In this document: positions 3,568 to 47,539 of the stretch, piece after piece
Numbering within the stretch: position 1 is the stretch's first letter
How the letters are laid out: the number at the start of each line of letters is the position of its first letter
DNA from: Synechocystis sp. LKSZ1
Lineage (GTDB): Bacteria; Cyanobacteriota; Cyanobacteriia; Cyanobacteriales; Microcystaceae
Assembly (NCBI RefSeq): GCF_040436315.1
Contig: NZ_AP031572.1
Span: 3,472,001-3,536,000 of the forward strand
DNA: 64,000 nucleotides
Direction of reading: 5' to 3'
Position numbers and translations under genes: made by a program
The notes under the pieces: model-generated
Seen by the model: only the letters and a program-made list of their open reading frames with translations
Told to the model about the DNA's origin: nothing
The model's database searches: none

Positions 3568-4557
3568 GTGAAAATCCCCCCATTTTCCCTTCCTCAGCCC
3601 AGTTCTGATGGTTCCAACAAACGTCTACGACGCGACCGACTCTGGGGAGCTTTGGGGGCCGGCTGTTTTGTCGCTCTCTTAACTGGAACCGTTACCAGCA
3701 AACTAGAATCAGCACTTGTTTCTGGCCTGGCCACGATTCCGGCCTGCTGGGGCAACCACTGGTGGCAGGAAAGACGGCGCCATCAGGATCAATGCTATCG
3801 CTACTCACAGCTTGTTTACGATATCCAGGCCTTGGAACTCCGCCTGCTGGAGCTGGAACATTATGAAGAACAAATCAACCAAGTCATTGCCGTTGCTGAT
3901 ACCTTTAGTCAACGGATTAGCGACGAAAATCAAAAACTGAAAGCGGAGCATTCCCACCTCAGTCGTCAAATTTCGGCCCTGCAAAATAAGCGCCAGGAAT
4001 TGGGCCAGCGCTTTGCAGAACTCCAACCCCAAAAAGAACAACTGGAAGCGGAATTACAGGAACTCTGTCAGCAAATTGAGATTACAGGTAACCATAAGCA
4101 GGAAATCGAAAAAAATCTGATTGAGAGTACCTATAACCTCAAAATTATTGAAAATACTTGTTACTTTATTCGGGAAGAGCTTGAGCAACTCCATCAAGAA
4201 GTCCTCGACCGTGTGCAATATCGCGAAGAACTGACCCAATCCATCACCTCCCTAGAGCAACAATCCCAAAAGACGAACCAGCAACTGCAATCGATGTTGC
4301 AACAGGAAGACCAGTTACAGACTATGCTGGCCCAGTTAGAAGCCCAAAGGGCCTCGTTGGAAGTAACCTGCGGTGAATTGGCCCACAATATCAGTACCTT
4401 GCAACGGGAAGAGAAAATTCTGTCGGAATCTATCACCGAAAAACAAGAAGAGGTGCAATCCATGGAGAGTTGTTTAACTTACCTGCGCCAGGAATACAAC
4501 AACCTGCCCTCAGAGTCCTTGGCCCTGCCCTTTCTCCGCACGATCCCCCCCGCCTAG
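3568..4557 (+). CDS. Membrane-anchored coiled-coil protein of unknown function (329 aa)
   Basis: GTG start at 3568; an AAGGAG lies about 20 nt upstream, too far for an ideal ribosome site, so the start is not certain. A single hydrophobic segment at about residues 27-59 follows a basic stretch (KRLRRDRLW). From about residue 75 to 315 the protein is almost continuous coiled coil rich in Glu, Gln and Leu. Architecture is that of a membrane-tethered rod. No catalytic motif is visible and I do not recognise the family. It lies 76 bp downstream of another coiled-coil gene and is the last core gene before the AT-rich island. Confidence 0.65.
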   Translation: MKIPPFSLPQPSSDGSNKRLRRDRLWGALGAGCFVALLTGTVTSKLESALVSGLATIPACWGNHWWQERRRHQDQCYRYSQLVYDIQALELRLLELEHYEEQINQVIAVADTFSQRISDENQKLKAEHSHLSRQISALQNKRQELGQRFAELQPQKEQLEAELQELCQQIEITGNHKQEIEKNLIESTYNLKIIENTCYFIREELEQLHQEVLDRVQYREELTQSITSLEQQSQKTNQQLQSMLQQEDQLQTMLAQLEAQRASLEVTCGELAHNISTLQREEKILSESITEKQEEVQSMESCLTYLRQEYNNLPSESLALPFLRTIPPA

Positions 4558-5045
4558 AGTTTTCCTTCTTCCAATCCATTAGAATAAATCCCTGAGGCTC
4601 AGTGACATCACTAACCTCACCCGTCGGATGTATCCCACTTGGCGTCGTGCAATTCAAAATAAGTTTGCTCAATTCGGTGGAAATCATGCTTGAGGCAGAT
4701 AGTCCCACGCACTACATCCGGACATTTTCGGGGTAGCGAATAGTTCAGAAAAAATACACTAATCGGTGTACAAGCTTTGGGGTATACATATTCAGTCCAA
4801 CTTCTTGCCGTCTCTCTATTTGGAGTAATATGTAGAAAAATTCTTAAAAAAATGCGTATGTTTCATGATATTTGAAAACTTTCTGTATAATCTCTAGCTA
4901 TATAAAAGTTTCCACCGCGTTCTATTTTTTTGATATCAGAATTGTAGCCAAAGTTACAAGAGATGGTTGATAGCATAAGCCTTTGTCTTAGATACTAGAT
5001 AATATAATTATGTTTTATAAATCTCTATTTTGAGAAATAAGAGTT
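4558..5045. other. 488-bp intergenic region at the island's left edge
   Basis: No convincing gene. Composition changes from the GGCC-rich style of the core to AT-rich DNA at about 4735. A possible -10 (TATAAT, 5003-5008) lies 37 nt before the downstream ATG, and a second TATAAT at 4886-4891 is present; neither has a good -35 at the usual 16-18 bp. A short minus-strand reading frame over 4557-4708 is not supported by anything I recognise. Confidence 0.5.
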
Positions 5046-6710
5046 ATGTCATTCGACTATATTGGAGCCTTTCCAATTCCTGTAGCAATCCTTCCTGAAA
5101 AACTGCGTAACCTTCTAGAATCTATCAGCTTCGATCCCCAGCAGAGGGTCGAAGTTGCCTGCTTTTTCGAGTCAGATCCACATGGACCTAATGTCGAGCA
5201 TGTATATTTACAAACTGCTGTGGTTGTAGACAATAGAGATGAGCCAATTGAAGTTTTGGATGAAGCTGGACAGGGCGTAGTCAAATTTTGCGTTCCTATA
5301 GATACGAAGGGGGGGGCTTCCAAATTCATCCCATCAATTTCAGGGCAAGATTATGTTATTGCTAGTTGGGGCAATAATTATTTTTATTCCTTTCATTTGG
5401 CTGAGAAAGTTTGGATGACGTTAGGATTGACGCCTCGATGTGTGGGGAATGAGCACCAACGCCTTATCTATGATGATCTTGGCCTTCCTGAATTTGGAGT
5501 CGTAGAAGGTGAAGTTTCCAGCGAGTACTACGGGGAATTAAAGCGCAATGTCAGCTGGAAAATGTCCAATGAGTATTTACGAAAGTATCTTTGGTTACGC
5601 GGGGCCAGAGCAATAAGGGTGTTCTATTACAGGAAGTTGTTCCCTGATCAAGCTGAGCTTCGTGAGCTTATGAAGGGTAACACGCACATTGAACTGAAGC
5701 CTTGTACTGGGCCTGCTTGGTATCTTCTCGATATTCGCCAGCACAACGGTGGCTTATTACTTCAGGTATGGGCATCTGTAGAATCAGTTTCCTGTAAGCT
5801 GTGCCCTGAACAAAGTGCAGATGGTCTTGTGTGGCCAGGAAGTACAGAGCCGATGACTCATAGTCACGCCAATGCTCTGGTTGGGATGAACTCAGTTTAT
5901 TTGGACGACAAGTTTCTTCAGCGTTATGAACAGAACACTTTTTATGACACGGTACCATTTCGGCTTTATGGTGTTTGGCACTGTAGCCCATCATACAAAG
6001 GACAATGGAACTTTACTGATTGTGTCAGGGTGGGGCGGAATCTCATTCAAGTTCCCCTGCGAGAGTTGTACAAGCCAAAGCCAGATCGAGAGATTATCCA
6101 TGCGCATAAATTCGCACTAAGTTCAGCGGAGATCGCACATCTTGACATGGATGCAGAACATATAGTTGCGAAAACACAGCGACTTCTTGACCAACTTTTA
6201 TGGTTAGGGGATAACCTGTCGAGACTTGGTGCGTTGTTCGGGTTGGCAAAGACTGGAGCAGATCTGGTTGGATTTTCGCGCGAGGAGTTGCAGTCGAACA
6301 GTTGGGCGCAGTATCCAAACCTATGCAAGTTGGCTCAGGTTGCCCCCTTGGACATGTCCCAGCAAGACTTTCTTGCAAGGTGCAAAAGCCTACATGAAAT
6401 CTGGCAGAAATTTCCCAACGGATATCTGAAGAGACTACTTGAAAAAGCAGGTTGTCCGCGTGTTGCCATTAAAGAGCTAGGGTCAATCAAGTTGCTCCAA
6501 GCACTGACAAATATTATTCAACAGTTAAATAGGCACGAGGAACCGATCGATACCTTCAGCTCGACTTCTGAACATGAAGGATGGTCCGACAGAAATGACG
6601 CTATGGCATTTTTATTCCTGAACAATGATTTACGAATTGCCGACGCGCACGAGTCCTTTAGCAAATGCCTTCAAACTCTTCAAAATATGGGTTTTGACCA
6701 GAAGTGTTGA
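5046..6710 (+). CDS. Unrecognised accessory protein, 3' end replaced by IS sequence
   Basis: 554-residue reading frame with no family I can name. It starts at ATG 5046 in AT-rich DNA with a weak AAGAG before it. No signal peptide or membrane segment is visible; the N-terminal 350 residues look like mixed alpha/beta and the last 200 mainly helical. Only residues 1-551 are native: the coding sequence reaches GGT TTT GAC at 6690-6698, and the last three residues (QKC) and stop are read from the left inverted repeat of an IS4-family element. The missing 37 codons are intact at 7884-7997, so the ancestral protein had 588 residues. Near the end, R530-IADA-H535 matches the Rx4-6H signature of HEPN ribonuclease domains, which is suggestive only. 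The neighbouring toxin-antitoxin pair and the base composition point to an accessory, perhaps defence-type, locus. Confidence 0.7.
   Translation: MSFDYIGAFPIPVAILPEKLRNLLESISFDPQQRVEVACFFESDPHGPNVEHVYLQTAVVVDNRDEPIEVLDEAGQGVVKFCVPIDTKGGASKFIPSISGQDYVIASWGNNYFYSFHLAEKVWMTLGLTPRCVGNEHQRLIYDDLGLPEFGVVEGEVSSEYYGELKRNVSWKMSNEYLRKYLWLRGARAIRVFYYRKLFPDQAELRELMKGNTHIELKPCTGPAWYLLDIRQHNGGLLLQVWASVESVSCKLCPEQSADGLVWPGSTEPMTHSHANALVGMNSVYLDDKFLQRYEQNTFYDTVPFRLYGVWHCSPSYKGQWNFTDCVRVGRNLIQVPLRELYKPKPDREIIHAHKFALSSAEIAHLDMDAEHIVAKTQRLLDQLLWLGDNLSRLGALFGLAKTGADLVGFSREELQSNSWAQYPNLCKLAQVAPLDMSQQDFLARCKSLHEIWQKFPNGYLKRLLEKAGCPRVAIKELGSIKLLQALTNIIQQLNRHEEPIDTFSSTSEHEGWSDRNDAMAFLFLNNDLRIADAHESFSKCLQTLQNMGFDQKC
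6690..6698. repeat. Target-site duplication, left copy
   Basis: GGTTTTGAC immediately before the left IS end. The same nine bases occur at 7875-7883 immediately after the right end. Including neighbouring matching bases the shared string is TGGGTTTTGAC (6688-6698 and 7873-7883). Confidence 0.88.
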
Positions 6711-22140: not shown

Positions 22141-25100
22141 TCAAGCACCTGTGGATAACGACGGATTTTCCTGCAACGTCTTGGGAATTTCCATATTAAT
22201 GGTCAATTTAACGACACAGAGTTGTTTATCCTTTTCCGGAACCGAGGGATTGTGGTTGAGGTAATCCTCTAGCCACTGACAACCCCGGTCTAGGAGTTGG
22301 TCTAGGTTATCAACAGGCCAGAGGCGTGCCGTGCCATCGGTGGAAGCGGTGACGACCCAACGACCATCGGGACTAAATTCCGCACTCCTCACCCAACCAC
22401 TGTGGCCGCGAAAGATAGCCAATTCTCGTCCTAGGAGATCCCACAGACGAGCCGTGCCATCCGTAGAGGCCGTCACAATGATCTGTCCATCCGGGCTAAA
22501 TTGGGCCGTATTGACAAAGGCTTGATGGCCATAGAGAGCCACCAACTCCTGGCCCTGGCGATTCCAAATCCGGGCGGTGCGGTCAGCGGAAGCGGTGACA
22601 ATGTTTTGGCCATCGGGGCTAAATTGCGCTTGGTAAACAATATTTTGATGGCCCGTCAGCACGGCGATTTCCTGGCCCGCCAAGTCCCATAATCGAGCAG
22701 TATGGTCGGCGGAAGCCGTGAGCAAGTAATGGCCCTGGGGATCAAATTGAATGGTATGAACGGCCCCTCGGTGTCCCCGACAGACGGCTAATTCTTTGCC
22801 AACAATGTCCCACAGCGTGGCGCTTTTATCGGCAGAAGCGGTCGTAATAAACTGGCCATCGGGGCTAAATTCCGCGCTAAATAATGCTTGCCCCTGTTGT
22901 CGTAATACCGTCAAACACTGGCCTGTCGTGTTCCAAAGGCGGGCGGTGCCGTCCTTGGACGCCGTCAGCACAAACTGGCTATCTGGGCTGAAGCGGACAC
23001 TTAAAACCGCATCCTGATGGCCGCGGAGGGTCGCTAATCGCTTGCCGGCAGAGTTCCACAGTTGAGTATTTTTATCAGCGGAGGCGGTGGCAATAAAATG
23101 GCCATCGGGACTAAATTGGCCCTCTCGAATCCAGTCATGGTGACTTTCAAGGGTTGCTAAACAGCGACCTTGATCACTCCAGAGACGGGCAGTATGGTCA
23201 CGGGATACCGTTAAAATTCGATCCCCTTGGCTATTGAAGTGAGCATTGCGAACCCAATTGCTGTGGCCCTTGAGAACCGTAGCGCTTTTTTCCGACAGAT
23301 CCCAAACGCGGGCGGAATGATCGGCGGAAATAGTGAAAAGACGACGACTATCCTGGCTGAATTGGGCTTCATAGACTTCTTTTTGGTGGCCCCGCATCAC
23401 AGCTAGTAGTTGACCGGAACGTTGCCAGAGCCGAACAGTGCCGTCGTTGGCGAGGGTGACAATCGATTGGCCATCGGGGCTAAAACTGGCATCATAGACC
23501 GCTTGCTGTTGGGCCGAGAGAATTGCCACTGTCTTACCTTCTTGGTTCCACAGGCGAGCTGTACCATCACTAGAGGCCGTTAGCACCAGTTCCCCGTCGG
23601 GACTCCACTGGGCATTGCGCACCCAATTGTAGTGGCCCTTCAGAATGGCCAGACAATGGCCAGACAAATCCCAAATCCGGGCGGTGGTATCCGTCGAAGC
23701 GGTGAGAATCCGCTGGCCATCCGGACTAAACTGGGCATTGCGTACCCAATTTTGATGGCCCCTAAAGACTTGTAATTCCTGGCCCTGCAAATCCCAGAGC
23801 CGTGCCGTACCATCCCGAGAGGCGGAGAGAATCTGTTGGCCATCGGCGCTAAATTCTGCGTTTCTCACCCAGTGTTGGTGGCCCTGACATTGGGCCTGTT
23901 CTTCTCCTGCAAAATTCCACAGCCGCACGGTGCCATCCCGGCTACTGGTGAGCAGTAGCGCAGCAACCGGGCTAAACCGGACGCTGCGCACGGCTTTTTG
24001 ATGCCCTTGCAAGGTGGTCTGGAGTTGGCCCTGCCGGTTCCACAGACGAGCCGTGTGGTCGCTAGAGCCACTGAGGAGATAATCCCCCTGGGGACTCCAG
24101 TGGAGGCTAGTAATATCCCCCTGATGGCCCCGCAGGACATGGTACAGTTCCCCCGTTGTGGCCCAGATCCGCACAACGCCTTCGGTGCTTCCCGTGGCGA
24201 GGGTATGGCCCTCGGGATGCAAACAGAGGGAAGATACGGCCACCGGATGTTCTAAACGATTCCGCTCATGGATTTGTCCCAAAATTTGTTGCAATGCCAG
24301 TAGCGGCCCGAGACTGGGGTAGTGACTCACCCCCGGCTCCGCAGGGAGGAGGGAACGCAGTTCTTGGCCCAGACTTAAGGCGGCTAACAGGGCCTCAATG
24401 GGCTGAAATTCCGCTTGTCGGAGGATAATCTGGGACTGACGTTCGAGGCGTAGGCCCACTAAGAGTTTCTGATAGGCCTGCTCAGTGTGGGTCAACTGAC
24501 GACGTAGGCGTTGAATGCCATCAATGGCCTCGGAGCCCTCAGGAAAATACAAGGGCCAGTCCGGTTCCGGAGTCGCGGGACTGGTGAGGGATTCGGGGGG
24601 CTCAGGGGAGGGGAGTTGGGCCAGTACCTGGGTCAGCAATGGGGTACTGAGCCGGTAATAGGTGGTATCTCCCAGGGGAACAGCCACCACTAACCGTAAT
24701 TGTTCAAGGCACTGGAGCATCAGGTGGCCCTGGGAAGACTCTGGAGCCAGGAGTTCCGTAGCCGTTCGCAGGCTCGGTAACGGCGAAGATTCTGCTAAGC
24801 GCTGTAATATTTCCTTGGCCAGGGTTTGGAGGGCCATGGGCAGGGGAGTCAGTAGACGCTCAATACGATACCAATACAGTTTGTCTCTCCCCAGGGCCTG
24901 GTAAGCTTCCAGACTCGTGATCTGCCGTTCTTCCAGCTCACTGCCGAGGCGTTGCCAATCGAGGGGCACAATGCACTGATGGCTATCACTCAAATCCTCA
25001 AGGACTTGGGCCTGGAGGTCAGCATCCCAGCCCAGATCCGCTTTAACTTGCTGGAGATAGGCTTGAAAGTAGGACTTGGGAATCGGTGGAAAACGAAGAT

Positions 25101-27030
25101 GTTGAAAGGCCGGGAGGGGAATCCCGGTGCCCAGACGGTCAATCACCGTTGTCAGGGCCAGCGGGGGTAGGGCAATGAGAATCTTTAGACTTTTTTGGGC
25201 CAACCCCCGGCAAAGAAAAGAAACCAATGATGGGGGGCAGGCCTCTGGGTCGCCATCCAGCAGGAGAACCGTAGACTCCAGAGAGGCTAGACTTTGGTTC
25301 AAGGTTTCGACCTGAAAGTGTTCTAAAAGCTTGCTCTCCCACTCAGGATCTATTGGCAAGAGCAAGGGGCATTGGTGGGAGTAGTGTTCCTGGAGTTCTG
25401 GGAACAAATGGCAGGTCAGCCAAGAGCTTTTACCCATCCCGACTTCCCCAGACAGTAGAAGCAAGGGCGTATCCGTTGCCAGCCAATCCGCCAGGGATAG
25501 GGCCGGGAATAGGGGGAGGGGGGGAGGGAGCTCCGGTTGGGAGTCGGCGAGGGGAACACCGAGGGGATGACGTTTCATCCGGGCCAACGGCTCTGGCCCT
25601 AGTGGATAGCTACCGATAAAGGCCCGCTTGCCAATCTGGTATTCCAGGGCCTGGTATTCCTGGTCAATGGCAAGAACCTGTTGCCACTGCTGAGCTTGGT
25701 AGTAGCATTCCCGCAGTTCGATTAAAATGCCTGAAAAGAAATGGGGATTATCTTCTAGACAAGCCAATTGCTTAGCCAATTCCAGACTTTCCTGGGCCGC
25801 TTCCAGTTGCTCTTCTCCCAGAAGACAGCGCCCCGCCAGATAATGGAGCCAACTCTGCCAAACTGGGGTAATGCTAGGTTCCGGGGGTAAACTTTCCCAG
25901 GCCCGCTGGAGAGATTCCTTCGCTTCCGTAAAGCGCCACTGTTCAATTAAGGCTTCCGTTAACAGGCCATAGGCCATCGCCGTTTGCAGGGCCAGTTGGG
26001 AACGAGACCAGGGACAGTCCCCGTGCTTCGGTTCGGCCCCTGTGATCAGGGGAGAGAGTTGATAAAAAAAGACTAAAAAATGTTCTGCACACTGTTGGAG
26101 ATATTGCCAACTTTCCAGACCCCGTAGAATTGTTGCCAGTAGGATTAAGGTATCGTTGCGACAATCCCGCCAATCTCGCTCTTGGAGAGCCGCCATGGCG
26201 ATAGAAACCGCCTCTTGGGTCGCTTGCCAGAGAAAATGTCCCCGGTCTTTTTCCGACCAGGCCTGGAGCAGGTAGACGTAGGCCAAGCGGAGGCTCACCC
26301 AGGTGACTTCAGCCCGGTCTTCCAGTTGCTGAAAACAGACCAGGCTTTGGTGGTAATAGTAAACCGCACTGGGCAGACTGGGATCTAATCCTCCCCACTG
26401 CTGTATTTTTTCATAGTACAGGCCCTGGAGCAAACTGAAATGGGCCTGCTGGGCCGGGGTGAGTTCCGCCAGCGGTACCATTGTCCCCTGGAGTTGATAA
26501 ATCCTATCAGCGAGCTCGTCATCCCAATGGCAGTGGGGCCGCCAATAATCAGCAATGGCTGCCGCCAGGGCCTGGTCTAGACTCTCTCCCCCGAGGCAAC
26601 TATCCACCCAGGAACTGGTTCCCCCCAAAAAAGAGAGTAGGCCCCGAAATTCCGCTTCAATGCCAGGGGTTAGACCGATCACCCAGTGAAACGCCTGCTC
26701 AGGATAGGTTTTTTCTTTGGCTTGGGCTATTCGCGCCAAGGCTTCCTGGGGTTGAGCACAGTCTTCTAGGCCGACGAGTAACAACACCCGAGGGGGAGCC
26801 TCCAGGGTCAGCGCCAACCCGCCATCGGTTTCCGTTCCCTGACTCAGATCAAGCATCTGAGCCTCTTGAGTCAACATCCCCTGAAATTCCGTCAGAATAG
26901 CCCGAGGGCGGGGAGTCCGCACAAAATAGGCATGGTCTAGGGCCGGTGATTCCTGGAGACGAGTTTGCAGGGTTGCCCATTCTTGCTGGGGCTGGGGCCA
27001 ACGTAACAAAAAGGTGAGGAGGGGGGTCAT
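22141..27030 (-). CDS. Giant P-loop / 16-repeat WD40 protein
   Basis: 1629 residues from ATG 27030, chosen because GGGAG lies 7 bases before it; an upstream ATG at 27054 has no such site. The first 500 residues are helical and TPR-like. A Walker A motif GEVGMGKSS (about residue 528-536) follows, then a degenerate NTPase/NACHT-like region with 'VLLLDGD' as possible Walker B. Residues about 940-1590 hold 16 consecutive WD40 repeats of 41 residues, most ending TARLWxxxG, enough for two eight-bladed propellers. Cyanobacteria carry several such STAND-like proteins, thought to be stress or signalling switches; the ligand is unknown. It lies 60 bp downstream of rsmH. Confidence 0.9.
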   Translation of the reverse strand: MTPLLTFLLRWPQPQQEWATLQTRLQESPALDHAYFVRTPRPRAILTEFQGMLTQEAQMLDLSQGTETDGGLALTLEAPPRVLLLVGLEDCAQPQEALARIAQAKEKTYPEQAFHWVIGLTPGIEAEFRGLLSFLGGTSSWVDSCLGGESLDQALAAAIADYWRPHCHWDDELADRIYQLQGTMVPLAELTPAQQAHFSLLQGLYYEKIQQWGGLDPSLPSAVYYYHQSLVCFQQLEDRAEVTWVSLRLAYVYLLQAWSEKDRGHFLWQATQEAVSIAMAALQERDWRDCRNDTLILLATILRGLESWQYLQQCAEHFLVFFYQLSPLITGAEPKHGDCPWSRSQLALQTAMAYGLLTEALIEQWRFTEAKESLQRAWESLPPEPSITPVWQSWLHYLAGRCLLGEEQLEAAQESLELAKQLACLEDNPHFFSGILIELRECYYQAQQWQQVLAIDQEYQALEYQIGKRAFIGSYPLGPEPLARMKRHPLGVPLADSQPELPPPLPLFPALSLADWLATDTPLLLLSGEVGMGKSSWLTCHLFPELQEHYSHQCPLLLPIDPEWESKLLEHFQVETLNQSLASLESTVLLLDGDPEACPPSLVSFLCRGLAQKSLKILIALPPLALTTVIDRLGTGIPLPAFQHLRFPPIPKSYFQAYLQQVKADLGWDADLQAQVLEDLSDSHQCIVPLDWQRLGSELEERQITSLEAYQALGRDKLYWYRIERLLTPLPMALQTLAKEILQRLAESSPLPSLRTATELLAPESSQGHLMLQCLEQLRLVVAVPLGDTTYYRLSTPLLTQVLAQLPSPEPPESLTSPATPEPDWPLYFPEGSEAIDGIQRLRRQLTHTEQAYQKLLVGLRLERQSQIILRQAEFQPIEALLAALSLGQELRSLLPAEPGVSHYPSLGPLLALQQILGQIHERNRLEHPVAVSSLCLHPEGHTLATGSTEGVVRIWATTGELYHVLRGHQGDITSLHWSPQGDYLLSGSSDHTARLWNRQGQLQTTLQGHQKAVRSVRFSPVAALLLTSSRDGTVRLWNFAGEEQAQCQGHQHWVRNAEFSADGQQILSASRDGTARLWDLQGQELQVFRGHQNWVRNAQFSPDGQRILTASTDTTARIWDLSGHCLAILKGHYNWVRNAQWSPDGELVLTASSDGTARLWNQEGKTVAILSAQQQAVYDASFSPDGQSIVTLANDGTVRLWQRSGQLLAVMRGHQKEVYEAQFSQDSRRLFTISADHSARVWDLSEKSATVLKGHSNWVRNAHFNSQGDRILTVSRDHTARLWSDQGRCLATLESHHDWIREGQFSPDGHFIATASADKNTQLWNSAGKRLATLRGHQDAVLSVRFSPDSQFVLTASKDGTARLWNTTGQCLTVLRQQGQALFSAEFSPDGQFITTASADKSATLWDIVGKELAVCRGHRGAVHTIQFDPQGHYLLTASADHTARLWDLAGQEIAVLTGHQNIVYQAQFSPDGQNIVTASADRTARIWNRQGQELVALYGHQAFVNTAQFSPDGQIIVTASTDGTARLWDLLGRELAIFRGHSGWVRSAEFSPDGRWVVTASTDGTARLWPVDNLDQLLDRGCQWLEDYLNHNPSVPEKDKQLCVVKLTINMEIPKTLQENPSLSTGA
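22315..24280 (-). repeat. 16 tandem 123-bp WD40 units
   Basis: The DNA encoding the WD40 repeats has a 123-bp period across almost 2 kb. Units share blocks such as GGCCATC-GG-CTAAA (the antisense of FSPDGQ) and the codons for TARLW. Some neighbouring units are clearly closer to each other (the 'WVRNA' units at about 23240-23330 and 23600-23870), which suggests duplication in blocks. Confidence 0.85.
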
Positions 27031-27089
27031 GCCATTGCTCCCATCGAAAAACAATCATCCAGCATGGGATAGACCAAATCACTTCTAGC

Positions 27090-36526: not shown

Positions 36527-39500
36527 TCAGTGGGATTCTCGATTTAGGGCCTCATCGGCCAACTTAATAATGGCATCAAAGTCGTAGTCATGAGTGAGAC
36601 GGATCAGAGCCTCCGTTAAACGGGCCTGGACCGGGGGAATTTGGGCCAATAATGTTTCGATCCAGTCGCCATCCACTTCCACGGCCGCCTGTCGCAGGGC
36701 CTGTAGCCAATCCGGGGTCATGCTTTGTAGGGCCTGGGGACTAAGGGGCGCTAAGGTGATACGACGGGGGGGCAGACTCGGGTCAGCATAGAGGTATTTG
36801 AGGCCTAAATACTGAGCCATCTTATCGAAAATAATTGATTCCTGAAAGGGTTTGCGTACCATATCATCACAGCCCATGGCCAGGATTCCCGCCCGTTGTT
36901 CCTCAAAGGCCGTAGCCGTCAAAGCAATAATAATCGGCGTAGGGCCCTGGGAAGAGCGCTTGATGCGTTGGGTGGCCTCGTAGCCATCCATCACCGGCAT
37001 GCGCATATCCATCCAGATCAGATGGGGTTGCCAGGCCTGCCAGACGGCAATGGCCTCTTCGCCATTGGCGGCCGTGCGAGTTTCTAGGCCGACACTGGCT
37101 AGCAGACGAGCCAACAGTTGCCGGTTTTCTTCCCCATCATCGACGACCAGAATGCGGTACTGGGGTTGGTCGGGCAGGAGCCCAATCACCCGCCGCCGGA
37201 CCGGATTGGTGGGGACTTTACCAGGAGGGGTAACGATGAGGGGCAGAGTAAAGCTAAACACAGACCCTTGCCCCGGCTGACTCCGAACCTGAATGTCTCC
37301 CCCCATCAACTGCACAAACTTGCGACTAATGGCTAGGCCCAGGCCCGTTCCCCCTTCATTCTGGCCATCGCGGCCGGCTTGGACAAAGGGCAGAAAGAGT
37401 TGAGCAAGGTCGGCGGCCGCAATCCCCCGCCCGGTGTCTTCAACGGCAAAATAAAGCTGGCCTGGGGTTTCCAGATTCACCCGCAGCGTGACGCCTCCCG
37501 TTTCTGTAAACTTGAGGGCATTACTCAATAAGTTAATCAGGACTTGGCGGAGTTTTCCTTCGTCGGCGCGGATAAATTGCGGCAGGGTCGGCGGCAGATC
37601 CATCTGCAAAAATAGGCCTTTTTCCTGGGCCCGGGGCTGAAATAACTCCTGTAGGGCCTGCAACAGATGCTGAAAATCGAAGGAAGTCGGATGGAGCCGA
37701 GTTTGGCCGGCCTCAATTTTGGACATCTCCAGCACATCATTAATGAGATTCAGCAGGTGTTCGCCACTGCGGTTAATAATGGCTAGGGATTCCTGTTGTT
37801 GGGGCGAGAGGGTTGTATCTCGCTCCATCAATTGGGCAAACCCAATAATGGCATTGAGGGGCGTTCGTAGTTCGTGGCTCATGTGGGCCAGAAATTCACT
37901 TTTGGCTCGATTGGCGGATTCGGCGCTCCGCTTAGCCGCCTCTAAATCCCGGCGTTGGCGTTTTTCTTGGGCCAGCAGTTGACCCTGGGCAATGGCAATC
38001 CCCACTTGGGCCGCAACGGCTTCCAGTAACTCGATTTCCCCCTGGCTCCAATGGCGGACTTGGTGGCGTTGATAGACCACAATGGCCCCGTTGGGTTCAC
38101 TTTGATAGGAGGTGCGGATGGCAATTAACGATTGAATATCCATTCGTTGGTCAAGATGAGTGGGGTCGTCGTCGGCCTGCCAAATCACCGCTTGATCCTG
38201 AGTCAAGGCCTGGTCTAAACCCGCTACATCGGCCAATTGCAGGGACTCCTCGTTACCAATGTGGGAGCAGGGCTTGCGATATTCCGCCACCACTTGGGCT
38301 TGATTATCGGCCTGGTAACTGAAGATCTGACAGCCATCGACCTGAAAACTTTGGCCAATCTGGTTCACTGCCGTGCAGGAAATGCGTCCCAAGTCTAAGC
38401 TCTGGCGAATATTCTGGGTAATTTGCTCCAGCAAGAGGGCTCGCTGGAGTTGTTGTTCCAGGGCCATTTCCGTGCGCAACCGCTCTAATTCAGCTCCAGC
38501 CCGAGCAGCAAAAATCTTTAAAATCAGCTTTTGATCTTCAAAATTAGGCTCATCCAAAGGTTTAGTATCTAGTGCTGCAATATGGCCCAAAATATCGCCA
38601 GCAGGATTCAGTAGAGGCATACTGACGTAACTTTCCACTCCGAGTTTGACGAGATCGATATCTTCGGGAAAACGGGTCTGAACCGCATCCGAGTAACAGA
38701 CCATTCTGCCTTGGAGAATGGCCTCACAGGGGGTTCCAGCAATATCGTACTCAAAGTTTTCACCAAAGTCTTTACCCGTCCAGACAGCGAAGGTTCGTGC
38801 CCGCCGTTTACTGGCATCGGTAAATTCAGCAATGAGCGCATAGCGGACTTTCAGGAGTTCCACTAGGGAGCGGACACAAGAGCGGAAAAAATCATTACCG
38901 ATCTTGGCGGCGGTACCCTCCACAATCAGACGCAGGGCCTGTTCCCGCTGTTTTCGGTGGGTAATATCCTGGAAATACCAAACACGGCCGTAGTAGTCGC
39001 CCTGGCTGGAGTGAATCGGGCTAGAATAGCGCTCTAAAATACGCCCGTCCTTGAAGGGAATCTCATCCCGGCTAATTTCTAGGGGGGATTGGTAAAGATA
39101 ATCTAATTTGGCTTTAAACTCCTCGGGTTCCGCCAACTTCGACAGAACGTATTCTCGGAGGGGAATGGCGTTGTCCCCTGTCATGACGGCGGGAGGAATT
39201 TGCCAGAGATCCCGAAAACGCTGATTGTAGGAAATAATTTGGTGTTGCTCATTGACCACCAAAATACCTTCGGGGGAGGCATCGCGCTGGGCCTTGAGCA
39301 GGGCATTATTCCGCTCTAGCATGGCCTGTACCTGTTGGCGTTGGTGGGTTTCCAGAGCCAAGGCCACAAAATCAGCAATAGAGCCCGCAAAATTCTGCTC
39401 TGCCAGCGTCCAGACCCGGGGGGCTTGAATTTGTTCGTGGCAGACCACCCCAACAATTTTCCCCTTCACCCGGATCGGTGCATCCAGGTTGGCCTGGATT

Positions 39501-41422
39501 CCCAGGGGAATGAGGTAGGAATCCAGGAGTTCCTGGAGGCGGGGGTCATTCTGAGCATCGGGAAAGGATAAACTCCGGCGCGAAGTCTGGAGGGCCTCGC
39601 AATAGGAGGGATAATCCCGAATGCACAATTCCAGACCCAGACTATGACGGTCATCTGGTAATTCGTAGAGGTCGGCACAGCGGAGTTTGGTATGGTCGCG
39701 GTCAAAGAGCCAAATCCCCACCCGCTCAACCCGGAGGGAACTGGCGGCGGCTTCGGTAATGGCGCGGAGGGCCAAATCGAGCTGGCCCAGGGCCAGGGCC
39801 TGACTTTGGGCCAGACTTGCCAAGGCCTGACTTTGTTGCTGTAAGCGCCGTTCACTATCGGCTAGGGCCATTTCGGCCTGTTTACGGTCACTGATATCGA
39901 GCATTACTCCTTCTAGGCAGTTCTCCTCCCGATTAAGCCGAACCGAGCAGAGGCCCCACCGCAGGGACTGGTCGTGGCGACGAAAACGCAGTTCGTAGTA
40001 GCCCAATTCTCCCTGCTGTTGCAATTGGGCCACAATCCGTTCCCGGTCACTGGGATCGGCGTAAAAGTCCAGGGTGCGTAATTTCCCGACCACCTCTGAG
40101 GGGTCTTGGTAGCCCCCCAATTCAATAAAGCGTTGATTAGCTTCGAGAACCAGACCATCGGTTACCCGAGTGCGAAAAATACCAACCTGGGAATTTTCAA
40201 AGAGGTTGCGGTACTTGAGTTCACTGCGCCGCAGGGCCTCTTCCGTCCGCTTACGCTCTGTGAGGTCGTAGATAATGCCTTGAACAAGACGACGATCACC
40301 AATCTGAATCGGGGTTAACCAGACCTCGGCTAGAAAGTCAGTGCCATCGGCCCGGCGATGAATCCATTCAAAACGATGACTCCCCTGGGCAAAGGCCTGC
40401 TGGATATATTCATTGGCCAACTCCTGGGAAGAACGTCCATTGGGTTGCTGGGGCGGGGATAAACGACTGGGGTGTTTGCCGATAATATATTGGCGACTGC
40501 ATCGAAAAAGGATTTCCGCCGCATTGTTACAGTCAAAAATCCCCTCATCGTTGCCGGTAATAATGCCCAAGCTAATGGAATCGTAGAGGACGCGCAGGCG
40601 GGTTTCCGATTCTAAAAAAGCCTGCTCCGAACGCTTCCGGTCAGTAATATCTTCACAAATCACCAGCAAATGTTGGGGTTGCTGGGCCTCATCGTAGAGG
40701 GGAATCTTGCGGGTATGGAGTATCCGCTGTCCTTGGTGAGGAGTATCAATAAACTCCTCGGGAATTTCTTCGGAGTGGCCCTGCTCAAAGGCCTGGTGGT
40801 CTTTTTGCTCAAAAAACTGGGCCTGCTCTAAGGGTGAAATATCATAGACGGTTTTTCCCAGGGCCTGCTCAGCGGAAATACCAAACATGCGTTCACAGGT
40901 TTGATTCCAAAATTGAAACTGGCCAAAGGTATCAGGACGGCCATCCTTAACAAACAGGGCCAGGGGAATGTTATCAATCAGCGTTTGTAAAAAGGCCTGG
41001 GAGCGCTGGAGTTCCCTCGCCAGAGCTTGGGCCGGCCCCCCATCGGCCGGAATGACTTCCATCAGCCAAAAGGTACCCAGGTCGGGTCGCTCTCGATCGA
41101 TCCAACCTCCCCAAATTTGCAGGGACTCCTCTCTGTAATCATAGATTCCTGCTCCGGTTTGGCCCCGGCGGAATCGGGCCTCGGGATAGTCGCTGGCTGC
41201 AAGGAGCCGGCCGCCCTGACGGAGGGGCATCACATCGGGCCAGGTTTGGCCCTGGAGTGGTCTAGGATTCGGGCACCAACTGGCCCAGCGGGAATTGTAG
41301 TGACTAATTTGTCCTTGGGCATCCAACCACACCACCCCCTGATTCAAGGCCGCTATGACCGCCCGATACTGGGCCAATTCCGTCTGCAGTGGTTCGACAG
41401 GGGAGACAGTGGGGGTAGACAT
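36527..41422 (-). CDS. Large multi-PAS/GAF hybrid histidine kinase
   Basis: 1631 residues from ATG 41422; an in-frame TTG at 41440 adds six residues. No membrane helix is seen. Visible order: about four PAS domains (1-540), each pair joined by 'ITDRKR..E' or 'LTERKR'-type linkers, a GAF (about 545-710), another PAS (about 720-850), two more GAFs (about 855-1015 and 1030-1180), HisKA ('FLAHMSHELRTPLNAIIGF'), HATPase ('LINLLSNALKFTETG', 'EDTGRGI', 'GTGLGLAISRKF'), a C-terminal receiver (phosphoacceptor in 'LIWMDMRMPVMDGYEA', Lys in 'VRKPF') and a short tail. None of the GAFs shows an obvious bilin-binding cysteine environment. It leads the four-gene signalling run. Confidence 0.93.
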   Translation of the reverse strand: MSTPTVSPVEPLQTELAQYRAVIAALNQGVVWLDAQGQISHYNSRWASWCPNPRPLQGQTWPDVMPLRQGGRLLAASDYPEARFRRGQTGAGIYDYREESLQIWGGWIDRERPDLGTFWLMEVIPADGGPAQALARELQRSQAFLQTLIDNIPLALFVKDGRPDTFGQFQFWNQTCERMFGISAEQALGKTVYDISPLEQAQFFEQKDHQAFEQGHSEEIPEEFIDTPHQGQRILHTRKIPLYDEAQQPQHLLVICEDITDRKRSEQAFLESETRLRVLYDSISLGIITGNDEGIFDCNNAAEILFRCSRQYIIGKHPSRLSPPQQPNGRSSQELANEYIQQAFAQGSHRFEWIHRRADGTDFLAEVWLTPIQIGDRRLVQGIIYDLTERKRTEEALRRSELKYRNLFENSQVGIFRTRVTDGLVLEANQRFIELGGYQDPSEVVGKLRTLDFYADPSDRERIVAQLQQQGELGYYELRFRRHDQSLRWGLCSVRLNREENCLEGVMLDISDRKQAEMALADSERRLQQQSQALASLAQSQALALGQLDLALRAITEAAASSLRVERVGIWLFDRDHTKLRCADLYELPDDRHSLGLELCIRDYPSYCEALQTSRRSLSFPDAQNDPRLQELLDSYLIPLGIQANLDAPIRVKGKIVGVVCHEQIQAPRVWTLAEQNFAGSIADFVALALETHQRQQVQAMLERNNALLKAQRDASPEGILVVNEQHQIISYNQRFRDLWQIPPAVMTGDNAIPLREYVLSKLAEPEEFKAKLDYLYQSPLEISRDEIPFKDGRILERYSSPIHSSQGDYYGRVWYFQDITHRKQREQALRLIVEGTAAKIGNDFFRSCVRSLVELLKVRYALIAEFTDASKRRARTFAVWTGKDFGENFEYDIAGTPCEAILQGRMVCYSDAVQTRFPEDIDLVKLGVESYVSMPLLNPAGDILGHIAALDTKPLDEPNFEDQKLILKIFAARAGAELERLRTEMALEQQLQRALLLEQITQNIRQSLDLGRISCTAVNQIGQSFQVDGCQIFSYQADNQAQVVAEYRKPCSHIGNEESLQLADVAGLDQALTQDQAVIWQADDDPTHLDQRMDIQSLIAIRTSYQSEPNGAIVVYQRHQVRHWSQGEIELLEAVAAQVGIAIAQGQLLAQEKRQRRDLEAAKRSAESANRAKSEFLAHMSHELRTPLNAIIGFAQLMERDTTLSPQQQESLAIINRSGEHLLNLINDVLEMSKIEAGQTRLHPTSFDFQHLLQALQELFQPRAQEKGLFLQMDLPPTLPQFIRADEGKLRQVLINLLSNALKFTETGGVTLRVNLETPGQLYFAVEDTGRGIAAADLAQLFLPFVQAGRDGQNEGGTGLGLAISRKFVQLMGGDIQVRSQPGQGSVFSFTLPLIVTPPGKVPTNPVRRRVIGLLPDQPQYRILVVDDGEENRQLLARLLASVGLETRTAANGEEAIAVWQAWQPHLIWMDMRMPVMDGYEATQRIKRSSQGPTPIIIALTATAFEEQRAGILAMGCDDMVRKPFQESIIFDKMAQYLGLKYLYADPSLPPRRITLAPLSPQALQSMTPDWLQALRQAAVEVDGDWIETLLAQIPPVQARLTEALIRLTHDYDFDAIIKLADEALNRESH

Positions 41423-41524
41423 GGGGTTCCAAGCTTGCAAGCCAGACTATGCAGACAGGATAGCTCAGCCCAAGGTCGAAAGGTTCCTCCCTCTGGGGGG
41501 ATTTTGGCCTGACCGAAGGCAGCC

Positions 41525-44550: not shown

Positions 44551-45666
44551 TTACGCAGCTTTTCCCCTCGTAGAGGCAATCAACCAACGACCGAGGGCAG
44601 GGAAGAAACGACAACTATTCACCCCGATCGCCGCAAGAGTCGGATTAATAAAGGCCTGGTGCATAAAACGACCCAGTTGTAAGCGTTGGTTAAATTCCTG
44701 TCGCCAAGCACGCTCATAAAGGTCTTTAAAGGTTGCTAAGGGAAAGGAATCTTGTAATAGTTGACTGATTAAAGGAACCACTAGATCGGCAGACCGCAGG
44801 GCCATGGCCATGCCATCCCCACAAAGCGGCGTAATCATCCCTCCTGCATCCCCAATCAAACAAAGGTCGTCTTCAAAGGGGTCTTTACGGGCAAAGGAAA
44901 TCTGGGCGAGATTTTTGGGACTCGTCACCCGTTCCCAGGACTGTAATCGCTCGGCTAACATCGAATTCTGAAACAGGGCTTCTGGGGTATGACGGTCTCT
45001 AGGGTTATTTTTCAAGACACGCTGATGGGCAATCCAGCACACATTGATTTTGCCCGCTTCCACCTGAGACAGTCCACAGTAACCCCCAGGAAAAGCATGG
45101 AGTTCAATTCCCTGAGGTAATTCTTGCCCCTGATAATGGGCTTTACTGGCAATCCAGGGAGATTTTTGCTGGATAAAGGGTCGGTTTAGCTGGTGATCCA
45201 AGGATGAGGCTTTACCAAAGGCTCCTAGGACAAAACGACCGTCAAAGTTGCCCCGATGGGTACTCACTTGAAAGCCTTCTCCAAAAGACCCGGCGATCGC
45301 CTTGACTGCTGTTCCTTGATGGGCGATCGCTCCCACCGCCTCGGCCCGTTCCCACAAAATACGATCCAATTGGTAACGACTGAGTCCTAGGGCGGTACCC
45401 GGTAATTCTCCGCGAAATTCTGCCCCCTGATTGTTAGTGAGATAGACGTTTTGGATGGGATAGGCCCCGACAGCTCTCACGGTTTCTAAAATGCCTAGCC
45501 GTGCAAAGATTTCAATCACTTCAACGGATAAAAATTCGCCACAAAGTCGGTGGGTGGGATAACGAGCTTGTTCTAATAGCAGAACCTGATAACCTCGTTG
45601 GGCCAGTTGAATGGCCGCGCTAGACCCCGCTAATCCTGCGCCGACAACAATCACGTCATAAATCAT
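44551..45666 (-). CDS. FAD-dependent oxidoreductase of the type III PKS operon
   Basis: 371 residues from ATG 45666, which overlaps the methyltransferase stop (ATGA); an upstream frame to 45720 is not a real extension. Belongs to the geranylgeranyl-reductase/halogenase-like flavoprotein group: N-terminal 'DVIVVGAGLAGSSAAIQLAQRG' (GxGxxG FAD loop), 'HRLCGEFLSVEVIEIFARLG', and C-terminal 'LCLIGDAGGMITPLCGDGMAMALRSA' (GD motif). In bacterial type III polyketide operons a flavoprotein like this hydroxylates or oxidises the aromatic product, e.g. to a quinone. Its substrate here is inferred from position only. It contains two HIP1 octamers (45293-45300, 45323-45330). Confidence 0.88.
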   Translation of the reverse strand: MIYDVIVVGAGLAGSSAAIQLAQRGYQVLLLEQARYPTHRLCGEFLSVEVIEIFARLGILETVRAVGAYPIQNVYLTNNQGAEFRGELPGTALGLSRYQLDRILWERAEAVGAIAHQGTAVKAIAGSFGEGFQVSTHRGNFDGRFVLGAFGKASSLDHQLNRPFIQQKSPWIASKAHYQGQELPQGIELHAFPGGYCGLSQVEAGKINVCWIAHQRVLKNNPRDRHTPEALFQNSMLAERLQSWERVTSPKNLAQISFARKDPFEDDLCLIGDAGGMITPLCGDGMAMALRSADLVVPLISQLLQDSFPLATFKDLYERAWRQEFNQRLQLGRFMHQAFINPTLAAIGVNSCRFFPALGRWLIASTRGKAA

Positions 45667-46412
45667 TTGCTTCTTTCCCTCCGTACTGTACTGAGTAACC
45701 AGCGAAAGGGAAAATACCACCGCAAGGAAAAATCCGTTAACCCTGCACCTTCGGCGATCGTCGTCAAATCATTAGCCCGAAAACCGCGCAATACGGACAG
45801 AGGGCCGTCATGGCGTACCATCGGAGCGGCGGGTAATAAACGGGTCAAGCTATAGATGCCCGCATAGGCCAGGGGATGACGGTGGAGATCGTTGATAATA
45901 ATGCCGTGCTGGGAAACCCGTTGCAGATCTTTCACAATGGCGATCGCCTTGGGTTGGGCAAAGTGATGTAAAAACATGGCTCCCATACCAATATCAAAGG
46001 CATGATCAGCGTAGGGTAAGGCTAAAGCATCGGCCACTTCGAGACTAATTTTTGCGCGTTGGCGATCATTTAAACGTTTTTCTAGGGTTTGCTGGGCATA
46101 GTCAATGGTGGCCGGGTTGGCATCTACCGCCGTAATTTCTATCGGTATATCAACGGATTGAGCCTCCGCCCAGCGCACAATATATTCGGGAAAATCGGCA
46201 ATCCCTGTTCCTAAATCCAGAATGCGTGTCACCTGGCCCGCCCTTGACTGCAAAAACGGAGCCAAAATCGCCATCGTGGTACTATAGCCCCCCAATAAAC
46301 GATTGACCCAACGTAATTGCTCCAAAGCCTCGGTTAAGCGTTCATCGGTAATGGAAAAATCATCCATTAATTCATCGGTGTCGGTACGAATTTGAAAAGA
46401 CGGAAAAACCAT
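45663..46412 (-). CDS. Class I SAM methyltransferase of the type III PKS operon
   Basis: 249 residues from ATG 46412, which shares one base with the polyketide synthase stop (TAATG). SAM motif I is 'RILDLGTGIADFPEYIV', with 'ITAVDANPATIDYA' as the acidic post-I loop and 'DIGMGAMFLHHF' as the later motif. Such a methyltransferase beside a type III synthase usually O- or C-methylates the polyketide or phenolic product. A start at 46445 would overlap the synthase further. One HIP1 octamer lies at 45940-45947. Confidence 0.88.
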   Translation of the reverse strand: MVFPSFQIRTDTDELMDDFSITDERLTEALEQLRWVNRLLGGYSTTMAILAPFLQSRAGQVTRILDLGTGIADFPEYIVRWAEAQSVDIPIEITAVDANPATIDYAQQTLEKRLNDRQRAKISLEVADALALPYADHAFDIGMGAMFLHHFAQPKAIAIVKDLQRVSQHGIIINDLHRHPLAYAGIYSLTRLLPAAPMVRHDGPLSVLRGFRANDLTTIAEGAGLTDFSLRWYFPFRWLLSTVRRERSK

Positions 46413-47539
46413 TATGCGTTTGCCCCTAGCTGTTGCCATAAACAACTTTCAATGGTTAAGCCCGGCCCAAAGGCCAGACCTACCAGATGATTGAAACCGT
46501 TTCCCGCCGTTAAACCTCTGTGATGACGGGCCAGTAAGCGTTGCAAGATAAATAAAATCGTGGGAGAACTCATGTTGCCATACAAACGTAGAACTTCAAA
46601 GGAATCGTGAACTAATGAATCGGACAGAGCTAACAGGTCTTGAATGGTTTCTACAATTTTTCTACCCCCTGGATGAATCGCCCAACCGTCAATCATGGCA
46701 GGATTTAATTGGTGTTTAGCTAAAAAGTCGTGCAAAAAATGTGGTAAATATTCGGCAATGACTTCTGGTACTTTTGGCGACAATCCCATCAAAAAACCGG
46801 TATCACCAATCGTCCAATTCATTAAATCTTCCCCCGCCAATAGTTGGCTATAACTGTCTTGATAGATCAGTTTTCCTACGGCTTCTGAATAAGACTGCGA
46901 TCGCAGAATGGCGGCAGCGGCTCCATCGGCAAAAATGGCATTAATCACCAAATTTTCCACCGAATCATTGATCTGAAAATGAAGCGAACAGAGTTCCACA
47001 CAGACCAGTAAGACCTGAGCTTGATCGTCTCCCTGACAAATAGCATGGGCTAATTTCAACCCGTTTAAGGCGCCATGACAGCCCATAAACCCGACGAGAG
47101 TTCTGGCTACCATTGCGGGGAGTCCCAAACTTTGGATGAGATGAATATCTACCCCTGGCGCAGAAAAGCCTGTACAACTGACCACAATCAGATGGGTAAT
47201 GGTTTCTGGTTTTAAGCCTGCTTTTTCGAGGGCCTGTTGGGCCGCGCTGGTGGCGATTGCCTTGGCCCAGATTTGATACTGTTGATTACGGTCGCGGGTA
47301 CTGGGGGCGGGTTGTAGGTAAGGGTTATTGGCAAAAAAGCGAAATTGATCTGGCTCTAACCCATAGTCTTCAAGACAGCTATAACGATAATCAATGCCCG
47401 ATTGTTGATAAATACGAGTAATACGATTTTGTGTAGCCTCGGAAAATCGCTGAACACGGATCATAAACGCGGCGGCTTCTGCCTGGGATCGCCGAAAAGG
47501 AGGATTAGCCGTCCCAATAGATTCCAAAACCGTGTACAT
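46412..47539 (-). CDS. Type III polyketide synthase (chalcone-synthase superfamily)
   Basis: 375 residues from ATG 47539, close to the length of chalcone synthases; an earlier in-frame start at 47578 adds 13 unlikely residues. The Cys-His-Asn triad is complete: C154 in 'GFMGCHGALNGL', H289 in 'WAIHPGGRKI' and N322 in 'RLYGNMSSPT'. It is a homodimeric enzyme that extends an acyl-CoA starter with malonyl-CoA without carrier protein; products of bacterial relatives are alkylresorcinols, pyrones or tetrahydroxynaphthalene. The starter cannot be read from sequence. One HIP1 octamer lies at 46897-46904. It heads a three-gene overlapping operon. Confidence 0.95.
   Translation of the reverse strand: MYTVLESIGTANPPFRRSQAEAAAFMIRVQRFSEATQNRITRIYQQSGIDYRYSCLEDYGLEPDQFRFFANNPYLQPAPSTRDRNQQYQIWAKAIATSAAQQALEKAGLKPETITHLIVVSCTGFSAPGVDIHLIQSLGLPAMVARTLVGFMGCHGALNGLKLAHAICQGDDQAQVLLVCVELCSLHFQINDSVENLVINAIFADGAAAAILRSQSYSEAVGKLIYQDSYSQLLAGEDLMNWTIGDTGFLMGLSPKVPEVIAEYLPHFLHDFLAKHQLNPAMIDGWAIHPGGRKIVETIQDLLALSDSLVHDSFEVLRLYGNMSSPTILFILQRLLARHHRGLTAGNGFNHLVGLAFGPGLTIESCLWQQLGANA

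Follow-up and report, generated by a model that had tools for sequence, protein, structure and literature searches.

In a 64,000-nucleotide stretch of the genome of the cyanobacterium Synechocystis sp. LKSZ1 (contig NZ_AP031572.1, positions 3,472,001 to 3,536,000 of the forward strand; the whole stretch is hereafter the window), three adjoining genes encode a type III polyketide synthase (PKS), a methyltransferase (MT) and a flavoprotein. We favor the view that they form a hierridin-like operon for a phenolic lipid, which would make a 5-alkylresorcinol and then methylate and hydroxylate it to a hydroquinone or quinone lipid. All three open reading frames (ORFs) are intact and lie on the minus strand:

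46412..47539, minus strand: type III PKS, HidC-like; ATG at 47539, TAA at 46414-46412, 375 amino acids
45663..46412, minus strand: class I S-adenosylmethionine (SAM)-dependent methyltransferase; ATG at 46412, TGA at 45665-45663, 249 amino acids
44551..45666, minus strand: FAD-dependent oxidoreductase (the flavoprotein) of the geranylgeranyl (GG)-reductase/flavin hydroxylase/halogenase superfamily; ATG at 45666, stop at 44553-44551, 371 amino acids
46410..46414, minus strand: PKS/MT stop-start overlap, TAATG with one A in common
45663..45666, minus strand: MT/flavoprotein start-stop overlap, ATGA

A preliminary description of this DNA had read the three genes as one coupled operon; both overlaps were re-read from the sequence and uphold this, and Pfam and NCBIfam concur with the family names that it gave. 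Among loci of relatives the MT/flavoprotein overlap is ATGA in L132 and L045, GTGA in L036 and TAATG in L048, and is absent from L037 and L035 in the same comparison; L132 and L048 have a few bases between PKS and MT, and the interval is greater in L035, L036, L037 and L045. Coupling of the genes is thus common, not invariant. Because the identical order recurs among relatives, the three-gene set exceeds chance. A promoter scan found 8 candidates against 5.3 (standard deviation 2.6) in shuffled sequence, and a terminator scan found fewer than in shuffles.

The PKS matches the Pfam domains Chal_sti_synt_N (1.1e-25) and Chal_sti_synt_C (1.2e-21) and has the catalytic triad Cys154-His289-Asn322; Cys-His-Asn is kept in all 68 aligned rows. 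Two further residues bear on its product. Met251 lies at the position of Phe265 of chalcone synthase (CHS), where 62 of the 64 family rows have Met; HidC-type enzymes are described as having Met at this gatekeeper position (Larsen et al. 2021; PMC8086630). Trp242 is Trp in 62 of the 64 family rows and Phe in the other two; among four reference rows, it is Leu in PKS18, Ectocarpus PKS1 and L112, and Trp in Steely1. An exchange of Trp and Gly at one position of ArsB and ArsC is reported to toggle between alkylresorcinol and alkylpyrone (PMC6274091). We take Trp242 to be the counterpart of ArsB Trp281, from the PKS18 alignment and from motif spacing: Trp242 and Met251 are nine residues apart, as are Gly284 and Met293 of ArsC. 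Since Trp242 falls at the ArsB/ArsC switch position, the window PKS likely forms a 5-alkylresorcinol, which agrees with the phenolic-lipid type of synthase first proposed for it. That it releases alkylpyrones or acyl-resorcylic acids instead, to be decorated by the other two enzymes, strikes us as very unlikely: single residues are reported to be able to switch type III PKS cyclization (PMC6274091), but the family is nearly uniform in having Trp at the switch position, whereas the pyrone synthase PKS18 has Leu.

The MT matches Methyltransf_25 (6.4e-10) and Methyltransf_11 (1.8e-8) in Pfam, and its best NCBIfam match is PRK06202 (142.6 bits, under the 243-bit cut-off). Its predicted fold (pLDDT 93) is nearest to CouO (Z 21.6), NovO (21.4) and Coq5 (20.4). 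CouO is a C-methyltransferase by the title of its structure entry, and the next-best matches, NovO and Coq5, are C-methyltransferases too. The fold matches of this model lean to C-methylation, and ring C-methylation is slightly favored over O-methylation.

The flavoprotein matches FAD_binding_3 in Pfam (1.1e-16) and the GG-reductase superfamily in NCBIfam (1.3e-33). Its structural model (pLDDT 87) resembles halogenases, squalene epoxidase and p-hydroxybenzoate-type hydroxylases, at Z 32.6 to 38.9 among the 50 matches listed. Sequence and fold matches together place the protein in the GG-reductase/halogenase-like group, as had been proposed. Although halogenases are among its top folds, WxWxIP, the motif of flavin-dependent halogenases, is missing from all 15 aligned flavoproteins (one row partial), and we rejected a halogenase as the principal explanation for this reason. 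The role that best fits the model is hydroxylation of the ring, which would give a hydroquinone able to become a quinone.

Do the three enzymes act together? We consider relatives in which their genes are apart. In a scan limited to the best 80 of 577 relatives (the named loci), identities are 51-62% for cyanobacteria, 48-53% for Rhodothermia of the Salinibacter type and 40-45% for a remainder that is mostly Bacteroidota. The flavoprotein gene is not adjacent to the PKS gene in several Pseudanabaena or in the loci of the Salinibacter type, and in the latter the MT gene is separate as well. We chose eight genomes with a PKS locus that lacks the flavoprotein, and all eight have it elsewhere. The MT is present in seven: in four Pseudanabaena it adjoins the PKS, and in three genomes of the Salinibacter type it adjoins the remote flavoprotein; the sole genome without an MT match is a 2.6-Mb draft. 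The unlinked co-occurrence of PKS, MT and flavoprotein is the strongest evidence that they serve one pathway. In the Salinibacter-type pairs L144/L150, L143/L151 and L141/L149 the pathway is split, with MT and flavoprotein as a separate two-gene unit. For Pseudanabaena galeata, the type III PKS is described as “standalone” in a genome paper of 2024 (PMC11356792).

We also searched a panel of 386 cyanobacterial genomes, scoring the best few candidates in each. The PKS matches in 37 genomes at E<=1e-30 and the flavoprotein in 10 at E<=1e-40, of which 8 have the PKS. The other two are G032, a draft 83% complete, and G344, which is one contig and shares its genus code with a Pseudanabaena. In G344, a flavoprotein and a shortened MT lie at 3663-4775 and 6264-6545 of locus L162, with no PKS match; this is probably a decaying cluster. 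In the other direction, this flavoprotein has no match at E<=1e-40 in 29 of the 37 genomes with the PKS. Among these, 21 belong to family f25, which we take, partly from gene order, to be the picocyanobacteria, and which stands in by gene order for the HidC clade (LEGE 06113); they give no match because the hid-type flavoprotein is too distant.

How close is the operon to the hierridin genes themselves? The MT gene lies 5' of the PKS gene in 20 of 20 f25 loci, and in 13 of these a flavoprotein was detected between the two; this is the hidABC order. PKS precedes MT in the window and in L002, L004, L008, L009, L020, L022, L031-L037, L045, L048, L049 and L132. Between the window and the picocyanobacterial loci, identity is 38-45% for the PKS (tblastn, 20 loci), 25-30% over whole ORFs for the MT (6 loci; one 79-residue piece reaches 44%) and 23-36% over partial stretches for the flavoprotein. 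Identity and profile score were the sole measures of MT kinship; a picocyanobacterial MT scores 310 bits against PRK06202. L093 was taken out of the MT alignment.

For the PKS we built a maximum-likelihood tree whose 67 rows are the window, two references and 64 loci, 41 of which are among the 80 named. Not included were L003 (which has a stop), the duplicates L002/L004 and some others, and Steely1 was removed following a long-branch warning. Fifteen f25 rows and two planctomycete rows form a clade with 100/100 support; the window lies outside it, weakly placed beside Pseudanabaena (87/37). A position of the window PKS as sister of this clade is not rejected (p-AU, approximately unbiased test, 0.3). 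The 13 cyanobacterial rows with PKS before MT do not form one clade, and forcing them together is not rejected either (p-AU 0.136). The flavoprotein tree has 32 rows, without four long-branched plasmid rows. Five f25 rows and one planctomycete row group together with 100/100 support at the end of a very long branch; the window flavoprotein is outside this group, at an unresolved fork close to further cyanobacterial rows. A joint clade of the window and hid-order flavoproteins is rejected at p-AU 0.014, for a group picked after an earlier tree and with a long branch in it. The operon sits near those of Pseudanabaena, Chamaesiphon, Thermosynechococcaceae and another genus of its own family. By these sequence comparisons we regard it as hierridin-like in the broad sense and outside the hid cluster proper.

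The same results bear on the plain hierridin B pathway, in which the MT would O-methylate both phenols and the flavoprotein would hydroxylate the ring of pentadecylresorcinol. The three gene families are the same, the order hidC>hidA>hidB is counted as hierridin-like by Larsen et al. (PMC8086630), and the PKS may be sister to the hid-order/planctomycete clade. Against it stand the identities of the three proteins to their picocyanobacterial counterparts given above, the far lower score of the window MT against PRK06202, and the rejection of the joint flavoprotein clade. We therefore consider this pathway rather unlikely, and the product is probably not hierridin B itself. The preliminary description had suggested a possibly new product, unless all three proteins fell within one characterized cluster. 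As far as our comparisons reach, they do not refute a new product: the PKS lies outside the hid-order/planctomycete clade, with a place as its sister not rejected, and the grouping of the flavoprotein with the hid-order ones is rejected.

In the pathway that we favor, the PKS would take a long-chain acyl starter, as acyl-acyl carrier protein from fatty-acid synthesis or as ligase-activated acyl groups, and add three malonyl units; C2-C7 aldol closure of the tetraketide would then give the 5-alkylresorcinol. The MT would methylate its ring, slightly more probably at carbon than at oxygen, and the flavoprotein would hydroxylate the ring to a methylated alkyl-hydroquinone, oxidizable to the quinone. 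What the data show is the gene content, the coupling and co-occurrence of the genes, the fold classes and the diagnostic residues; we infer the starter, the product, the order and positions of the tailoring steps and the biological role of the pathway.

Several points weigh against this pathway. The best sequence family of the flavoprotein carries a reductase name, at 117 bits (below the cut-off of 158.8). Should the protein be of the GG-reductase kind, it would saturate either an intermediate or the alkyl chain, and the pathway would end at a methylated resorcinol without added oxygen. We think this improbable: the best NCBIfam match favors it, but halogenases and aromatic hydroxylases head the structural matches, and a starter from fatty-acid synthesis should need no more reduction. 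Single-component flavin hydroxylases bear a “DG” NAD(P)H motif. It is not evident in the window flavoprotein, where AFGK stands in its place, so the enzyme may depend on an outside electron donor. The three top folds of the MT are just 0.8 to 2 Z ahead of those that follow (Z 19.6, then N- and other methyltransferases), and sequence comparison of the MT with solved structures gives weak, generic matches. The match of Trp242 to ArsB is indirect, made through motif spacing and PKS18 without a direct alignment to ArsB or ArsC. Absences in the 386-genome panel are provisional, given the few candidates scored per genome. Finally, the role of the flavoprotein is left unresolved in the planctomycete study too (PMC10896814).

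We next describe the surroundings of the operon. Its neighbors encode a sigma factor, NadA and a large protein that we read as TamB-like. Neither flanking intergenic stretch contains, in a plausible frame, an ORF long enough for a carrier protein (the longest has 55 amino acids); one flanking ORF of 85 amino acids overlaps the TamB-like gene. The early remark that no fatty-acyl ligase or carrier gene is adjacent therefore holds for the immediate neighbors. Elsewhere the genome has three AMP-binding enzymes: L194 is an acetate-CoA ligase, L196 is MenE-like, and L195 comes closest to the long-chain acyl ligases, with a score under the cut-off.

The guanine-plus-cytosine (GC) fraction of the operon is 0.485, against 0.54 to 0.55 in the flanks. 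Its GC at third codon positions (GC3) is in the low tail of the genome's ORFs: in a set of 183 ORFs drawn from a 400-kb portion, 11 are at or below the value of the PKS, 29 that of the MT and 18 that of the flavoprotein. A PKS of this kind was not found in four other genomes of the genus (present in one of five); one of the same genus, G078, has a PKS match below the family cut-off. The same operon is present in G389, which belongs to a different genus of this family (identity 55% for the PKS, 71% for the MT and 61% for the flavoprotein). It is possible that the operon was gained by transfer, the alternative being inheritance with loss; an empty site is not shown, as the left-hand neighbors in the window were not found beside the TamB-like gene in four relatives. 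Farther away in the window, two ORFs with TTG starts lie on the same strand at 22141-27054 and 36527-41440. Both encode 1637 amino acids; a DNA duplication was not found.

Some related loci contain a further gene. A match to the UbiA family of prenyltransferases occurs in 34 of the 80 named loci, in the range L053-L110, and in 30 of these 34 within 400 bases of the PKS match. One also lies beside the PKS in three of four loci of f32, from another class of Cyanobacteriota (L133 6824-7657, L134 4500-5369, L135 3530-4387). Pfam confirmed the family assignment for all four matches tested. None was found in the 11 named cyanobacterial loci or in L132, and a search of the Synechocystis sp. LKSZ1 genome, run without a positive control, gave no match to a UbiA-like gene. 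The gene content suggests that the UbiA-bearing loci make prenylated phenolic lipids.

The gene set is already known and, as gene content, ordinary; we know of no product for the branch to which it belongs, and found none in the open-access literature that we searched. According to Larsen et al. (PMC8086630), only two product families of type III PKSs had been isolated from cyanobacteria by 2021. It is tempting to speculate, although we rate the idea as doubtful, that this branch (some cyanobacteria and Rhodothermia/Salinibacter) makes a C-methylated alkyl-hydroquinone/quinone lipid unlike the hierridins, a membrane lipid that would be an accessory redox carrier in the manner of the polyketide quinones of actinobacteria, and that the UbiA-bearing operons of Bacteroidota and of the other class of Cyanobacteriota make a prenylated version. 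The operon has three genes only, lies in a unicellular genus that is probably close to a laboratory model, and recurs across phyla, so that expressing it once in another host could be enough to tell what a widespread cluster makes. That the genes co-occur even when unlinked makes their three-enzyme pathway a firm unit that can be tested.

Among known systems, the planctomycete operon has the same three families as the window. Its order is MT-oxidoreductase-PKS (also in L184), which differs from that of the window, and its rows (two PKSs and one flavoprotein) cluster with the hid-order rows and not with the window. Planctomycete relatives of HidC are reported to yield pentadecyl- and heptadecylresorcinols (C15/C17) in C. 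glutamicum, and the Gimesia MT and flavoprotein to have added one methyl group, probably on carbon (Milke et al. 2024; PMC10896814).

On plasmids, two Deinococcus operons (L183, NZ_OV024759.1, 4929-7888; L188, NZ_CP086381.1, 4001-6975) have the order PKS-MT-flavoprotein, with genes that touch or overlap; in both, a phospholipase D-like gene lies two genes downstream. They share the order of the window, with PKSs 38-39% and MTs 27-28% identical to it; the flavoproteins barely match (22% over 298 residues, E 2e-4, or 38% over 42). A Psychrobacter plasmid (L185, NZ_CP012711.1, 5001-7824) has another layout of the set, in which the PKS gene and a flavoprotein-MT pair converge.

The preliminary description had named Streptomyces srsABC as the parallel. 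By their descriptions, srsABC of Streptomyces griseus and pkqABC resemble the window in having a PKS followed by an MT and an oxidoreductase/hydroxylase, and their PKSs have Trp at ArsB position 281, as we take the window to have in Trp242. The srs and pkq operons of actinobacteria are reported to lead to methylated alkyl-benzoquinones (PMC9927152), and SrsA, PKS10 and PKS11 are placed in a separate PKS clade, 2.22 (PMC8086630). The three-gene set was not seen in five actinobacterial plasmid records (by annotation, and by BLAST of unannotated stretches); the two plasmid-borne Streptomyces PKSs that we inspected have other gene contexts.

Hierridin-like clusters are the better parallel. Larsen et al. 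(2021; PMC8086630) describe them in cyanobacteria in two orders, hidA>hidB>hidC and hidC>hidA>hidB. Like hid of Cyanobium sp. LEGE 06113 and its kin, the window has the three families side by side, and its PKS has the catalytic triad and the Met gatekeeper given for the HidC clade. It differs from the hid cluster proper (HidC clade, 3.2222 of Larsen et al.) in that its PKS lies outside the picocyanobacterial clade that stands in for HidC and its flavoprotein does not group with the hid-order flavoproteins; the picocyanobacterial loci put MT before PKS, whereas the window has PKS before MT, and its MT and flavoprotein are distant in sequence from theirs. By gene order, the window PKS likely belongs to clade 3.2221 of the same study. 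The order PKS>MT>oxidoreductase in the window is exactly hidC>hidA>hidB, the second of the two arrangements catalogued in 2021.

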